Shown here: positions 21,202 to 54,800 of the stretch, piece after piece | Layout: every line of letters starts with the position of its first letter | Position numbering within the stretch: the first letter of the stretch is position 1 | Origin: Thermoanaerobaculia bacterium | GTDB taxonomy: Bacteria > Acidobacteriota > Thermoanaerobaculia > Multivoradales > Multivoraceae | Length of the DNA: 64,000 nucleotides | Reading direction: 5' to 3' | Assembly: GCA_022826745.1 (NCBI GenBank) | Contig: JAJDUI010000002.1 | Location: 1-64,000 of the forward strand | Position numbers and translations under genes: made by a program | Notes under the pieces: model-generated | What the model saw: the letters and a program-made list of their open reading frames with translations, nothing else | Told to the model about the DNA's origin: nothing | The model's database searches: none

Positions 21202-22755
21202 ATGAAGCGAACCCATCGACGCGAATTCCTCAGGACCGTGGGGGCGGCGACGGCAGGCGTGGCCGTTGCGTGCAGCCTGCGGTCCGAGCGGGACCTGGAT
21301 CGGTTGCCCAATGTCGTCTTCATCCTGGCCGACGACATGGGTTACGGCGACATCACCGGGTTGAACCGCGACTCGCAGATCCCGACCGCGAACATCGATC
21401 GCCTGATCCGCGAAGGCCGGTACTTCACCGATGCCCATTCGCCTTCGGCCCTGTGCACGCCGACCCGCTACGGCGTGCTCACCGGCCGCTACTGCTTCCG
21501 CACGCGGGTCAAGCGCAGCGTGCTCTGGGGCTACAGCCGCCACCTGATCGAGCCCGAGCGCACGACGGTCGCGTCGCTCCTCAGGGACAGCGGCTATCGA
21601 ACCCACTGCATCGGCAAGTGGCACCTGGGCATGGACATGCCGGCGCGGGGCCGCGACGGTTTCCCCGAGGGCGACGAAGTCGTCGACCAGCGGGCTTACA
21701 CGGGCGATGTCGACTGGGCGGGCCGGATCGAGAACGGGCCGGTCGCCAACGGCTTCGACACCTTCTACGGCATCTCGGCTTCGCTCGACATGCACCCCTA
21801 CATCTACATCGAGGACGACCGCTTCCTCGGCGAGTGCACGGTAGAGAACGACCTGCTCTTCATCACCGAGGACACCAGGGAAGAGCGCTACGGCGACAAC
21901 CTCGGCCCGGCCCATGCCGACTTCCGCGCCGACGAGGTGATGCCGAAGCTGACCCGGCGGACCGTGGAGACGATCGAGGCCCAGAGCGCCGGCGAGCCGT
22001 TCTTCGTCTTTCTCGGCCTCACCGCTCCCCACATTCCGATCGTTCCCTCGGAGAGGTTCCGCGGACTGAGCGAGATCGGGCCCTACGGCGACTTCTGCCT
22101 CGAGGTCGACGACACGGTGGGGCAGGTGCTCGATGCCCTCGATCGCAAGGGAATGGCCGACGACACGCTGGTCATCTTCACCGCGGACAACGGCTGTGCG
22201 CCCTACATCGGAGTCGAGGAGATGAACGAGCAGGGGCACTACCCCAGCTACGTCTATCGGGGCTACAAGTCGGACATCTACGAGGGAGGCCACCGCATTC
22301 CGTTCGCCGCCCGCTGGCCGCGGCGGATCCCGGCGGGGACCCGTTCGGACGAGATCATCTGCCTGACGGACCTGCTGGCGACCTGCGCCGGGATCACCGG
22401 CACGAGGCTCCGGGAAGACGCCGGCGAGGACAGCTACGACATTCTCCCGGCGCTCCTCGGCGAGCCGCTGTCCGCGCCGATCCGGGAGGCGACGGTGTAT
22501 CAGGCCGGCGACGGCTCGTACGCGATCCGGCAGGGGCGCTGGAAGCTGGAGGACACGCCGAGTTCCGGCGGCTACTACCGCGTGTCCCGCGAAGAGGCGC
22601 GCGAGGCCGGCCTGCCCGAGATCCAGCTCTACGACCTGGCGGCGGACGTCGGAGAGCGGAGGAACGTGTACGCGGAGCACCCCGACGTGGTCGAACACCT
22701 GATGGCCCTGCTCGAGAAGTACAAGCGCGAACCACGCAGCGCACCAGCTACCTGA
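21202..22755 (+). CDS. Tat-exported sulfatase lipoprotein (formylglycine type)
   Basis: A 517-residue sulfatase. The N-terminus combines a twin-arginine motif (RREFLRTV) with a possible lipobox (AVAC, C24), so it may be folded before export and anchored to a membrane. The N-terminal catalytic core opens with NVVFILADDMGYGD. The CxPxR maturation motif is CTPTR with C85, the residue oxidised to formylglycine. Later metal and substrate residues include GKWH and the TADNG region. AGGAG lies 9 bases before the ATG. It is convergent with the next sulfatase, overlapping by 8 bases. The natural substrate (sulfated glycan or ester) is unknown. Confidence 0.92.
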   Translation: MKRTHRREFLRTVGAATAGVAVACSLRSERDLDRLPNVVFILADDMGYGDITGLNRDSQIPTANIDRLIREGRYFTDAHSPSALCTPTRYGVLTGRYCFRTRVKRSVLWGYSRHLIEPERTTVASLLRDSGYRTHCIGKWHLGMDMPARGRDGFPEGDEVVDQRAYTGDVDWAGRIENGPVANGFDTFYGISASLDMHPYIYIEDDRFLGECTVENDLLFITEDTREERYGDNLGPAHADFRADEVMPKLTRRTVETIEAQSAGEPFFVFLGLTAPHIPIVPSERFRGLSEIGPYGDFCLEVDDTVGQVLDALDRKGMADDTLVIFTADNGCAPYIGVEEMNEQGHYPSYVYRGYKSDIYEGGHRIPFAARWPRRIPAGTRSDEIICLTDLLATCAGITGTRLREDAGEDSYDILPALLGEPLSAPIREATVYQAGDGSYAIRQGRWKLEDTPSSGGYYRVSREEAREAGLPEIQLYDLAADVGERRNVYAEHPDVVEHLMALLEKYKREPRSAPAT

Positions 22756-24151
22756 CGTTCGTCTCCGGCAGGAACGCGGCGAGTTCCTCGACGACGGAGG
22801 CGTACTCCGGCAGGGAAGCCAGGTTGGTCCATTCGTTCGGGTCGGCGTGGTGGTCGTAGAGCTCCCTGCCGCCGTCGTGGTACTCGATGTAGCGCCAGCG
22901 CTCGGTGCGGATGGAGTGGTTTCGGTAGCCGTAGGTCGTCAGCACGGGCCGCGGCCACGCGGCCTCCGGGTTCTCCAGCAGGGGCACGAGGCTCTGGCCG
23001 TCCAGTCCGCTTCGGCCGGGGACTCCGGCCAGCTCGACCAGGGTCGGGTACAGATCGATCAGGCTGACCGGCCGTGGACTCGCGGCGCCGCGCCGCGTTT
23101 CCGCCGGCAGGGAGATGATCAATGTCGTGCGGGTGGCCACCTCCCAGAGCGCGTGCTTCCGCCAGTGCTGTTTCTGGCCGAGATGCCAGCCGTGGTCGCC
23201 CCAGAGGACGACGATCGTGTTGCCGGCGTGCTCGCTCGCGTCCAGGGCGTCCAGCAGCCGGCCGACGTGCGCGTCGACGAAGCTGATCGTCGCCAGGTAG
23301 CCCTGCACCGCCCGCTGCCACTGGTCGTGCCTCAGCACCATCGCGTGGTCCTCGCCGTGCCGGCTGAAGTTACGGGAGTCCGAGACCGCGTACACCTCCG
23401 CCGCGAGTTTCTTCCCGAACGCCGGAAGGTCGTCCCGGTCGCCGTCCAGGGTCGCCGGCAGCTCGATGCCTTCGAGCGGGTGGAGGTCGAAGTACTTCCT
23501 GGGCACGTACCAGGGCAGGTGCGGCTTGGTGAAACCGCAGGCCAGGAAGAAGGGCTTCTCGCGCGGCTTGTTCAGTTCGCCGATCGCCCAGTCCACGACC
23601 TTGACGTCGAACATCTCGGCGTCGTCCACGTCGAGCGGTCCCCAGGGCGCCCAGGCGGACTCCGGGACACCTTCCTGCCGTTCGCCGACGTGCCGGGGGC
23701 CTCTCGGCCGCGCCGGCGTGTAGTACTCGTCCCAGGAGTCCGGATCGCCGGCGCGCGTTCCATGGAAGATCTTGCCGCCGCCCTGCGTGGAGTAGCCGTG
23801 CGCCTTCAGGTGCTGCATCAGGGTCACGGCGTCGGGCAGCTTCTCGCGAAACCGCTCGCCGTTGCCGTAGACGCCGGACTTCGAAGGCAGGACGCCCGAC
23901 AACAGACTGACCCTGGAGGGGTTGCAGAGAGGCGCCGGTGCGTAGGCTTTGGTGAAGGACACGCCGCGGCTCGCCAACCGGTCGATGTTCGGCGTGCGCG
24001 CCTGCGGGTGGCCGGCCAGGTGGCCGACCCAGTCGTTCAGGTCGTCGATGGCGATGAAGAGGATGTTCGGAGGCCGGTCCTGCGCAGGCGCGGGCGTAGC
24101 GACGAGCGCGGACAAGGCGATGAGCGATGCAGCGAATTGGAACCTGAGCAT
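22748..24151 (-). CDS. Secreted sulfatase, iduronate-2-sulfatase-like
   Basis: A 467-residue sulfatase with a Sec signal peptide (residues 1-23, TPAPAQ). The core begins NILFIAIDDLNDWVGHLAGHPQARTPNIDRLA, the form typical of iduronate-2-sulfatase and choline-sulfatase relatives. The maturation motif is CNPSR with C76. VLWGDHGWHLGQKQHWRKHALWE carries the C-terminal metal and substrate residues. It is convergent with the first sulfatase and divergent from the third (65 bases between starts). Family knowledge suggests glycosaminoglycan-type or algal sulfated polysaccharide breakdown, but the substrate is not proven. Confidence 0.92.
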   Translation of the reverse strand: MLRFQFAASLIALSALVATPAPAQDRPPNILFIAIDDLNDWVGHLAGHPQARTPNIDRLASRGVSFTKAYAPAPLCNPSRVSLLSGVLPSKSGVYGNGERFREKLPDAVTLMQHLKAHGYSTQGGGKIFHGTRAGDPDSWDEYYTPARPRGPRHVGERQEGVPESAWAPWGPLDVDDAEMFDVKVVDWAIGELNKPREKPFFLACGFTKPHLPWYVPRKYFDLHPLEGIELPATLDGDRDDLPAFGKKLAAEVYAVSDSRNFSRHGEDHAMVLRHDQWQRAVQGYLATISFVDAHVGRLLDALDASEHAGNTIVVLWGDHGWHLGQKQHWRKHALWEVATRTTLIISLPAETRRGAASPRPVSLIDLYPTLVELAGVPGRSGLDGQSLVPLLENPEAAWPRPVLTTYGYRNHSIRTERWRYIEYHDGGRELYDHHADPNEWTNLASLPEYASVVEELAAFLPETNVR

Positions 24152-24216
24152 GCAGCCTCCCGACCTTCGTTGACCCGCTCTACTATAGGGCTGGATCGAG
24201 CCGCTAGAGTCGTCGT

Positions 24217-25695
24217 GTGAAGCAGACCCGCCGTACCTTCCTGGCTTCCTCCGCCGCGATGCTGAGCGCGGCGGCGCTGCCCGCCAGGAAGCCGCAGGCG
24301 GAGCGTGCCCCCAACGTCCTGCTCTGCATCTCCGACGACCAGTCCTGGTTGCACACCGGGGCCGGAGGCGATCCGATCGTCCGGACCCCGGGCTTCGACC
24401 GGGTGGCGGAGGAGGGAGTTCTCTTCCCGAACGCCTTCTGCGACGCGCCGACCTGCGGGCCTTCGCGGAGCGCGCTCGTGACCGGTCAGCCGATCTGGCG
24501 ACTCGAGGAAGCGGGCAACATCCACAGCACGCTGCCGGCGAAGTTCGCCACCTACACCGAACTGCTGGAGCAGGTGGGCTATGCCATCGGGCACACGCGG
24601 AAGGGCTGGGGTCCGGGTCGGTTGCCCCCGGGAGGCCGCACGCGCAACCCGGCGGGCGACAAGTTCGAGAGCTTCGAGGCCTTTCTTCAGACCCGCGGCG
24701 AGGACCAGCCGTTCTGCTTCTGGCTCGGCAGCTACGACCCGCACCGGCCCTACACGGCGGGCTCGGGGCAGGAATCGGGCAAGGATCCGGGGAAGGTCGA
24801 GGTCCCGCCGCACCTGCCCGATCACCCGATCGTTCGCGACGACATCCTCGACTACTACGTCGAGGTGGAGCGGTTCGATGGAAGGGTGAACGCCGCCCTC
24901 GAACTCCTCGAACAGGCGGGGGAGCTCGAGAACACGCTCGTGGTCGTCACCAGCGATCACGGCATGCCGTTCCCGCGGGCGAAGGCCAGCCTGTACGACT
25001 ACGGCAGCCGGGTGCCGCTGGCGGTTCGCTGGGGCGAGGAGGTTCCCGGCGGCCGGGTCGTCGACGACTTCGTCAGCCTGAGCGACCTGGCTCCGACGTT
25101 CCTCGAAGCGGCGGGACTGGAGCCCGCGGCGGAGATGACGGCGAGCAGTCTGTTGCCGCTGCTCACCTCTTCGGCGAGTGGCCGCGTGGAGCCGGAGCGC
25201 GACGCGGCTTTCATCGCGATGGAGAGGCACGACGGTTGCCGTCGCGGCGGCAAGGGCTATCCGTGCCGCGCGATCCGGACCGCCAGCCACCTGTACATCC
25301 GCAACTTCGAACCCACCCGGTGGCCGTCGGGCTCGCCGAACGCGAAGGACTGCGCCCGCGACATCCCCTACGGCGAGATCGACTCGTCGCCGACGAAGAC
25401 CCTGATGATGGAGTCGCGCGGCGAACCGGGGATCGACCGCCTGGCCGAGCTCTCCTTCGGGACCCGGCCGGAGAACGAGCTCTACGATCTACGGAGCGAC
25501 CCGGGCCAGTTGAACAACCTGGCGGGGCAGCCCTCCGCTCAGCAGCTTGTCGGGCAGCTTCGCGATCGGCTGATGGACCACCTCGCGGCCACCGGCGATC
25601 CACGGGCCCTGGGCCTGCCCGCGCCCTGGGACTACTACCCCTACTACGGCCGACGGGTCAACGAGGACTGGGAAGTCGATCCGCCGCCGGGCTAG
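24217..25695 (+). CDS. Tat-exported sulfatase, heparan N-sulfatase-like
   Basis: A 492-residue sulfatase with a twin-arginine signal (TRRTFLASSAAML) and no lipobox, so probably periplasmic. The core starts APNVLLCISDDQSW. The maturation motif is CGPSR with C80. Its size and the GNIHSTLP and TSDHGMPFPRAK regions recall sulfoglucosamine sulfohydrolase-like proteins. The start is a GTG. The selenoprotein gene begins 35 bases after its stop on the same strand, and the two could share a transcript. Three sulfatases in under 5 kb imply use of a sulfated substrate, although no glycoside hydrolase or lyase lies with them. Confidence 0.92.
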   Translation: MKQTRRTFLASSAAMLSAAALPARKPQAERAPNVLLCISDDQSWLHTGAGGDPIVRTPGFDRVAEEGVLFPNAFCDAPTCGPSRSALVTGQPIWRLEEAGNIHSTLPAKFATYTELLEQVGYAIGHTRKGWGPGRLPPGGRTRNPAGDKFESFEAFLQTRGEDQPFCFWLGSYDPHRPYTAGSGQESGKDPGKVEVPPHLPDHPIVRDDILDYYVEVERFDGRVNAALELLEQAGELENTLVVVTSDHGMPFPRAKASLYDYGSRVPLAVRWGEEVPGGRVVDDFVSLSDLAPTFLEAAGLEPAAEMTASSLLPLLTSSASGRVEPERDAAFIAMERHDGCRRGGKGYPCRAIRTASHLYIRNFEPTRWPSGSPNAKDCARDIPYGEIDSSPTKTLMMESRGEPGIDRLAELSFGTRPENELYDLRSDPGQLNNLAGQPSAQQLVGQLRDRLMDHLAATGDPRALGLPAPWDYYPYYGRRVNEDWEVDPPPG

Positions 25696-25730
25696 AGTTG
25701 CGCCAACCCCTCATCTGGAAGGAGAAACGC

Positions 25731-26060
25731 ATGAACAGAGTCGACTGGTACTACCACCGCAACGGCTGAACGAGTTGCAAGAGAGCGTCCAAGTTGCTGG
25801 ACGCACGCGGCGCGGAGATTGCGGACAGGACCCCGGCGAGCCGGAAGCTGGGCAGGGCGGACGCGGAGGCGTTGCTCGCCGACGCGGAGACCCTCTACGT
25901 GGCCAAGGGGCGAAAACAGACGGAACTGCAGGCATCCGAGCCAGGCGCGGCCGACCTGATGTTGGGCCCGACGGGCAACCTGCGGGCGCCGGTGGTCAGG
26001 GTGGGCCGCACGCTGATCGTGGGCTACCACGAAGAGGCGCTGAACCAGGCCCTCGGCTGA
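25731..26060 (+). CDS. Selenoprotein: ArsC/glutaredoxin-like thioredoxin-fold protein with a UxxC motif (UGA codon 13)
   Basis: A 109-residue protein if the in-frame TGA at 25767-25769 is read as selenocysteine. The start is firm: AAGGAG lies 6 bases before the ATG at 25731. The N-terminus reads MNRVDWYYHRNG-U-TSCKRASKLLDARG, so U13 and C16 form a UxxC redox pair after the first strand of a thioredoxin fold. The C-terminal part has LRAPVVRVGRTLIVGYHEEAL, with the cis-proline and strand-helix end seen in ArsC, Spx and glutaredoxin relatives. The reading frame continues after the TGA with no other stop to 26060. A SECIS-like hairpin follows the TGA. Related ArsC-like proteins with Cys at this place are known; a thiol/selenol reductase role is inferred. 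The alternative is a pseudogene with a nonsense mutation, but the intact downstream frame, strong start and hairpin argue against it. It converges with lon, 7 bases away. Confidence 0.85.
25785..25804 (+). promoter_or_regulatory. Bacterial SECIS-like hairpin
   Basis: GCGTCCA (25785-25791) pairs perfectly with TGGACGC (25798-25804), a 7-bp stem closing the 6-base loop AGTTGC. The stem begins 15 bases after the UGA and the loop 22 bases after it. Published bacterial SECIS models ask for an apical loop roughly 16-37 bases past the UGA with a G in the first two loop positions. Both hold here, with G as the second loop base. It would recruit SelB with Sec-tRNA. Confidence 0.7.
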
Positions 26061-51893: not shown

Positions 51894-54800
51894 CTAACGA
51901 CGCACCCGGATCGGGAAGGGCGGCTTCGCCGGTTCGGCGGGCGGGTTCGACTCCAGTTGCGCGAGGACGATCTCGATCGCCTTCTCGAGCTGCGGGTCGC
52001 GGCCGGCGATGACGTCCGCCGGCCACTGCTCGACGTCGACGTCGGGCGGCACGCCGACGTTCTCGACGACGAAGCCGTCCTCGGTCCAGATCGCCAGGTT
52101 CGGGGCGGTGACGAAGCCGCCGTCCATCAGGACGGGGAAGCCGAGGGTGCCGACCAGGCCGCCCCAGGTCCGCTTGCCGACCAGTGGGCCCAGACCGAGC
52201 TTGCGGAACATCCAGGGCAGCAGGTCGCCGCCGGAACCGGCCGTCTCGTCGATGATCATGACCTTCGGGCCGAGAATCGCAGCGCTGGGGGTGCGGAAAT
52301 CGGCGCCGTAGCGGGTCGCCCAGTGGCTGATGTACGGGCGCCGCAGGTGGTCGATGTAGTAGTCGGCGACCTGGCCGCCGCCGTTGAAGCGCTCGTCGAC
52401 GATCAGGGCCTGCTTGTGGACCTGGGGGAAGAAGTAGCGCTTGAAGTAGGTGTGGCCGAGGGTCGTCGTGTTCGGCACATAGACGTAGGCCACCCGGCCG
52501 TCCGTGGCCTCGTCGACCTTGGCCAGGTTGCCCTCGACCCACTCCCGGTTGCGGAGCGCCGATTCGTTCCCGATCGGGACGACGGACACGGTGCGCGATT
52601 CGGAACCGTCCGCGTTCGGGCCGACCGTGATGTCCGTGATCTTGCCGGCCGTGTTCTCGAAGCGTGAGAAGACGTTGTCCGAGGCTTCGAGGTCGACGCC
52701 GTTAACGGCAAGCAGGTACTCGCCGGCCGTCACGGAGACGCCCGGCTCGGTGAGTGGCGCCCGCAACTCGGGGTTCCAGTTCAGGCCACCCAGGACGTGG
52801 GCGAAGCGGTAGCGGCCGTCGGCGATCTCGAAGTCCGCGCCGAGCAGGCCGCCGCCGACGCGCTCCGGGTCGGCTCGCCGGTCGCCGCCGCCGACCCGGT
52901 GGTGGCCGACGGCGATTTCGCTGCACATCCAGCGCAGCACTTTGTTCAGGTCGGCGCGGGTGGCGATGTCGGCCAGGAAGCCGCTGTACTTCTCGGCCAT
53001 CGCCGGCCAGTCGGCGCCGTGCATGCCCGGGTCGTAGAAGTAGTCCCGGTTGATCCGCCAGACCTCGTCGTAGATCTGCTTCCACTCGGCACGCGGATCG
53101 ATGCGTACCGTCAGCTTGTCGACCGGAATGGCGCTCTCTCCACGGTCGATCTTGCCGCCGGCGTTGGCGATGCCGAAGTCGTTCTGGCCGGCGTAGAGCA
53201 GCTTCTTGCCGTCGGCGCTCAGGGAGAAGCCGCCGACGCCGGAGAGCAGCACGGTTTCCTCGCGATCCTCCAGGTTGAAGAGGATGAGATCGCCGCCGCC
53301 GCCGCCGAACCTGCCCGCCGGCGAGCTGCGGACGTAGTAGAGCTTGCCCGCCTCGCCGGCCTCCAGGTTGCTGTAGCCGCCGGCCTGTACCGGAAGCGCC
53401 AGGATGCGCTGGTTCAGCCCCTCGAAGTCGATCTCGACCTGCGGCTCGTCCCCGCCCTCACCGTCGCTGCCGGCTTCGGCCTCGACCCCGGTCTCGTCGC
53501 CTTCTTCGGCTTGCCCTTCGTCGCCGGACTCCACGGTCTCCTCGTCGCTCTCCGCCGCAAGCGGCGACTCCCCGTCCTGGCGCAGTACCGCGACATAGAT
53601 CGCGCTCGACAGCTCCATGTCCGCGTTCGACATGGCGAACCAGTGCTTCACCGGACCGGCGTCGGTCGAGGCGCGGAAGTACAGGTAGTCGCCGCTCCGG
53701 TCGAAGACGGGCTCTCCGACCTCGCTCAGCCCGTCCGTCACCGGGTGGGATGTCCGCGTTTCCACGTCGTAGACGAACACCTGCTGCATGTAGGAGCGGG
53801 TGTTCAGGGTGTAGGCGACGTAGCGCGAGTCCGGGGCCCAGGAATGGCCGGGGCGGGGCGGGAAGGAGGGACCGTAGTAGTACTCGCTCGCCACCTTCGC
53901 CACGTCGCCGTCGTCGAGATCGATGACGAAGAGCGCCATCGAGTTGTCCACGTAGCTGATTCGCTTGCCGTCGGGCGACCACTCCGGGCCGTGGTAGAAG
54001 CCGTTGCCGCCGCGTTCGCCGCCCAGCTCGTAGCGGCGAACGTCGCCGCTCTCCCGGTCGCGGACGTGGAGACCGTACTCGCCGCCCTGGTCCGAGAAGA
54101 AGGCGATGCTGGCGCCGTCGGGCGACCAGGCCGGGTCGCGTTCGTGGACGCCGGGCGTCCGGGTCAGGTTGCGGGCGTCCCCTTTCTTCGCGGGCAGCGT
54201 CAGCACCTCGCCCCGATACCCGAACACGGCGCGGGCGCCAGTGGGAGAGATGGACGCGCTGCGGATGTTCTCGGGCCCTTCGACCCAGCGGGGCCTGGTC
54301 TCGGTCAGGTCCGCCGCGACGCCGATCGTCAGGCGCTCATGGCGGTCCGACGCCGGCTCGTAGAGGTGCAGGTAACCCGCCTGCTCGTAGATCACCGTGT
54401 CCGTGGAACCCGAGAGGTCCTCGACGTGGAAATCCTCGAACTCGGAATGCCGGACGATCTCGCCGCTGCCCGTGTCGAAGGAATAGAGGTTGAACTCGCC
54501 GTCCCGGTCGGACCGGAAGAAGACCCGGTTGCCGATCCAGGTCGGGTTCGTGTCGTTCGAGCGGCCCTCGGGTTGGGGGATCGTTTGCACCGAGTGGTCC
54601 GCGGTGTCGTAGATCCAGATGCGCGACGTCGTGCCGCCGCGGTAGTTCTTCCACTGCTGGAAGCGCTCCGGCGTCGGGATGTAGGCGATGCGGCGGCCGT
54701 CGGACGAGTAGCTGGCGCGCAGCCCGTGCGGAATCGGCAGCTTCGCGGGCAACCCGCCGGTGAGCGGCACGGTGAAGAGCTGGAAGTGGCGGTTTGTGAA

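Follow-up and report, generated by a model that had tools for sequence, protein, structure and literature searches.

The locus described here raises one question: does a TGA that interrupts a short reading frame at its thirteenth codon end translation, or is it read as selenocysteine (Sec)? The frame lies in the first 64,000 nucleotides of contig JAJDUI010000002.1 from a Thermoanaerobaculia bacterium (the window), and an initial annotation, made from the letters alone, had taken it for a hidden selenoprotein gene of ArsC/glutaredoxin-like type. Inspection of the sequence confirmed the layout on which that reading was built, namely AAGGAG 6 bases before an ATG, TGA at codon 13, and then 96 sense codons up to the stop TGA at 26058-26060 (Table 1). 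Read through, the product would be MNRVDWYYHRNG-U-TSC-KRASK...LGPTGNLRAPVVRVGRTLIVGYHEEALNQALG. The warning that a standard gene call would remove the active site was also correct: under the ordinary code, an 88-aa ORF from TTG 25794 is obtained. By itself the open run counts for little, because long runs after TGA are common at 68% GC; on the two strands of the window, at least 96 open codons follow 218 of 1322 TGA triplets. Of these 218, a single one is also preceded in frame, without an intervening stop, by an ATG that has a Shine-Dalgarno motif; these criteria were chosen after the case had been seen. Given a post hoc criterion and such common long runs, the decisive evidence is comparative, and it lifts the case well above chance.

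Table 1. Features of the locus, in window coordinates
Feature	Position	Strand	Remarks
Ribosome-binding site AAGGAG	25719..25724	+	6 nt before ATG 25731; read directly
Predicted selenoprotein gene, NF041106 ArsC family (seleno)protein, 109 aa, Sec13	25731..26060	+	ATG 25731, stop TGA 26058-26060
In-frame UGA, predicted Sec codon 13, motif U13-T-S-C16	25767..25769	+	TGA kept in relatives
Putative bacterial SECIS core hairpin	25785..25804	+	Stem GCGUCCA/UGGACGC, loop AGUUGC; from fold, constraint and covariation

Profile searches, in which Sec was read as Cys for scoring, assigned the product to a family. It passed the cut-off of 85 bits for NCBIfam NF041106, "ArsC family (seleno)protein", with 99.6 bits over positions 1-106 of 107, and it carries the UxxC motif with Sec near the N-terminus that characterizes this family, as U13-T-S-C16. 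The Pfam ArsC model PF03960 was also passed (28.9 bits, gathering cut-off 24). The scores stayed below the cut-offs for Spx/MgsR (TIGR01617, 21.1 bits against 75.05), glutaredoxin (TIGR02181, 14.6 against 90 bits; PF00462, 16.9 against 22.9 bits) and the NrdH family, and nothing in the genome matched NF041114, the "distant Grx-like UXX-star" family. A 2026 review (PMC13188914) lists NF041106 as the predicted selenoprotein "Arsenate reductase-like protein", with UxxC and one Sec, and PMC9312934 apparently has this entry too, under COG1393. The gene is therefore a further member of a known family of predicted selenoproteins and not new in kind; since the family has already been described, the label "hidden" holds for gene callers that ignore Sec and for nothing beyond them. 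Literature searches for the family in Acidobacteriota returned nothing specific, and the literature searched contained no experimental work on it.

Conservation of the TGA was followed through the genus and the phylum. A genome-contig scan revealed 17 relatives, 89-96% identical, in MAGs of Acidobacteriota, among them Thermoanaerobaculia, Holophagales and Candidatus Multivorans thiocomprendens. The TGA occupies codon 13 in 30/30 genus loci read, which represent 19 distinct coding sequences, certain genomes having been read twice. Most genus copies also have an AGGAG-like site ahead of this ATG, although their flanking sequence differs. Across 396 genomes of the phylum, every one of the 36 strong family matches (E below 1e-12) is interrupted by a single in-frame TGA and by no other stop. 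The genomes with a strong match all encode selA (36/36), against 252 of 396 overall (hypergeometric 3e-8, ignoring kinship). One genome of the same genus, G334, has selA without a match to the selenoprotein gene, reflecting either loss or an assembly gap. No Cys-containing version above the family cut-off was found in the 396 genomes searched, and most of the weak stop-free matches inspected are Spx/ArsC-type proteins carrying Cys in the Sec13 column. The search for homologues suggested by the initial annotation thus came out in its favor: the close relatives all keep the N-terminal strand and the UGA, none starts downstream of the TGA, and the column of residue 13 holds Cys or UGA in Spx/ArsC-type relatives that are further away.

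In an alignment of 14 sequences, Y8, R10, U13, G60, G79-P80, G82, R85-A86-P87, G92 and V97-G98 show no variation and C16 shows almost none; in L031 (and L077) the motif is U-T-S-S, with Sec retained and the resolving Cys lost. The survey also turned up a second group of UxxC frames with a UGA, more similar to Spx, in other Acidobacteriota (L096-L103 and L107; e.g. MKITMYLKPS-U-TSCRKA), which score only about 22-31 bits against NF041106 and probably correspond to the selenoproteins listed in the GOS survey as "Arsenate reductase 2" (cd03032).

Substitution patterns within the genus bear on whether the codons beyond the UGA are translated. After the UGA, pN/pS is 0.12 in this frame, compared with 1.5 and 3.4 in the other two; upstream of the UGA it is 0.53, on very few changes. 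By this measure the frame after the UGA is evolving as protein. Synonymous change is itself unevenly distributed, with a mean synonymous heterozygosity of 0.03 over codons 2-28 and 0.28 over codons 29-109, and in codons 16-29 (25776-25817), which include AGA18 and GCA25, there is nearly no synonymous change among the 19 distinct sequences. Frozen synonymous sites together with protein constraint are what an overlapping RNA element predicts, although translation initiation may instead account for some of it at the very beginning of the gene.

The constrained segment contains a hairpin that conforms to the published bSECIS rules. The loop on its 7-bp upper stem begins 22 nt beyond the UGA, with G as the second loop base, and the extended hairpin has a folding energy of -14.2 kcal/mol. 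The folding energy of the 64 nt after the UGA was ordinary relative to shuffled sequences (z -0.31) and did not single out a SECIS. Comparison among relatives was more telling: in 12 distant members that share one register of the hairpin, 94.8% of cells pair, and three pairs have changed on both sides, giving 7 both-side-changed cells. None of 500 shuffles reached this covariation score, and every slid version of the structure was worse; the slide control somewhat favors the hairpin, since the structure was derived by eye from the same sequences. RNAalifold did not recover the hairpin from the mixed alignment because its register differs by one base between subgroups, and the pairs were therefore counted on the one-register subgroup. 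Another subgroup (L048-L050 and L081-L088) has a different hairpin (GCACC-CGUGA-GGUGC), whose loop in most members lies 18 nt beyond the UGA, an arrangement which suggests that the putative SECIS has moved or re-evolved within the family.

The genome encodes the complete machinery expected of a bacterium with selenoprotein genes. The initial annotation had made its reading depend on the presence of sel genes, and all were recovered, on separate contigs: a tRNA-Sec (71 bits; tRNA-SeC with anticodon TCA according to ARAGORN), selA (448 bits), selB (358 bits over its pieces) and selD (251 bits). The same genome has a second selenoprotein gene, SelW-like (Pfam Rdx, 62 bits), with the motif C-V-M-U (CxxU) and one in-frame TGA, at L108:1495-1722 (G000:C18, around 51920-52129). 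Reassignment of UGA to an amino acid throughout the genome (code 4/25) was considered and rejected, since TGA is also the terminator of this gene and of most of its relatives.

If the UGA were an ordinary stop, the locus would be a 12-codon leader followed by a separate ORF from TTG 25794, a pseudogene, or a sequencing error. The standard code does offer that downstream ORF, but independent assemblies from many families retain the UGA, together with a conserved preceding strand and a conserved CxxC-equivalent motif around it. A start after the UGA forfeits strand 1 and the active site, and the Sec machinery is complete. On these grounds an ordinary stop is extremely improbable. We consider it very likely, from these comparative sequence data, that UGA 25767 is decoded as selenocysteine in this family. 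In the corresponding scheme, the ribosome would start at ATG 25731, the hairpin just 3' of UGA 25767 would recruit SelB with Sec-tRNA-Sec, and Sec would be inserted at the UGA, with translation continuing to 26060.

What the selenoprotein might do was approached through its predicted fold. An AlphaFold2 model, computed from a shallow alignment of close relatives, has a pLDDT of 91.6 and a thioredoxin/ArsC fold, in which residues 6-8 form a strand and residue 13 immediately precedes a helix (14-25). The closest solved structures by fold are Spx (Z 8.9), YffB (8.4) and NrdH-redoxin (8.0), all moderate Z values, and a profile match to Spx (E 7e-10) independently places U13 and C16 on the Spx CxxC. 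The proposal that the UxxC sits just before helix 1 is borne out by both the model and this alignment. A small Sec-based thiol oxidoreductase is the probable product, rather than a protein with a regulatory or arsenate role. Its redox cycle, as the fold and motif make likely, would begin with attack of the Sec13 selenolate on a disulfide or other oxidized substrate; Cys16 would resolve the intermediate as a selenenylsulfide, which the cellular thiol system would reduce. A Sec-Cys selenenylsulfide cannot be the mechanism of every member, since L031 has U-T-S-S and lacks the resolving Cys; such a member would act as a monoselenol enzyme.

The resemblance to Spx also raises the possibility of a regulator. 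Spx uses a CxxC switch. The protein here could likewise be a redox-switch regulator, in which a Sec13-Cys16 selenenylsulfide would alter binding to RNA polymerase or another partner instead of serving turnover. Spx is its nearest solved structure by profile and by fold, and the switch of Spx sits at the same column, but the protein fails the Spx/MgsR cut-off (21 vs 75 bits) and, at 109 aa, is shorter than Spx (131). We regard a regulatory role as unlikely for this protein, and it is equally doubtful that the family as a whole is an Spx-type selenium redox switch whose Sec-Cys selenenylsulfide, in place of a disulfide, acts as a signal to RNA polymerase or some other regulator. A genuine arsenate reductase, in which Sec attacks the arsenate, would agree with the Pfam ArsC match, with the conserved R85-A-P87 where ArsC-type proteins have an R-x-P segment, and with the listing of UxxS arsenate reductases among predicted selenoproteins. 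However, the motif is UxxC and not the catalytic CxxS of R773 ArsC, the NCBIfam search, taken to E 10, brought up no arsenate reductase equivalog model, both Spx and YffB match the structure better than E. coli ArsC does (Z 6.3), and the immediate neighbors in the window, read by eye, include no arsenic genes; this role is very unlikely.

The gene neighborhood adds little to the functional assignment. The genus and the distant members have essentially no common neighbor besides the gene itself, in line with the earlier remark that the adjoining sulfatase and lon genes are not obviously informative; these neighbors are not conserved outside the genus. Just upstream, at 21202-25695 of the window, three sulfatase-like genes, named by eye from their translations, stand in a row (+, -, +).

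Taken with its frozen codons and covarying SECIS-like hairpin, the locus is an unusually well-supported case for a family of predicted selenoproteins. That no Cys version above the cut-off occurs in the 396 genomes suggests that the chemistry depends on selenium, and this suggested dependence makes biochemical work on the family reasonably worthwhile.

Among known systems, the protein is closest to NF041106 (ArsC_rel_Se_1), with which it shares a score above cut-off, one Sec, UxxC and a length of about 107-110; the genus of the window lies near the low end of the family, at about 87-92 bits in a genome search where scores go up to 135, and its middle stretch is shorter, but nothing essential differs. 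With Spx/MgsR it has the ArsC-like thioredoxin fold in common, and their CxxC column corresponds to the UxxC here, whereas Sec replaces the first Cys, the protein is shorter and the score is below that family's cut-off. ArsC of the R773/E. coli type is alike in fold and in the position of the catalytic residue, but has Ser at +3 where Cys stands here, and its equivalog is not matched. The Sec-containing Spx/ArsC-type "Arsenate reductase 2" proteins (cd03032; GOS survey, PMC2398784) agree in the Sec column and UxxC and are related in fold, yet form a separate, more Spx-like subfamily. Selenoprotein glutaredoxin/NrdH-like redoxins share the thioredoxin fold, the U/CxxC before helix 1 and the cis-Pro segment, while the protein described here has an additional ArsC-typical middle stretch and scores below the glutaredoxin cut-offs.
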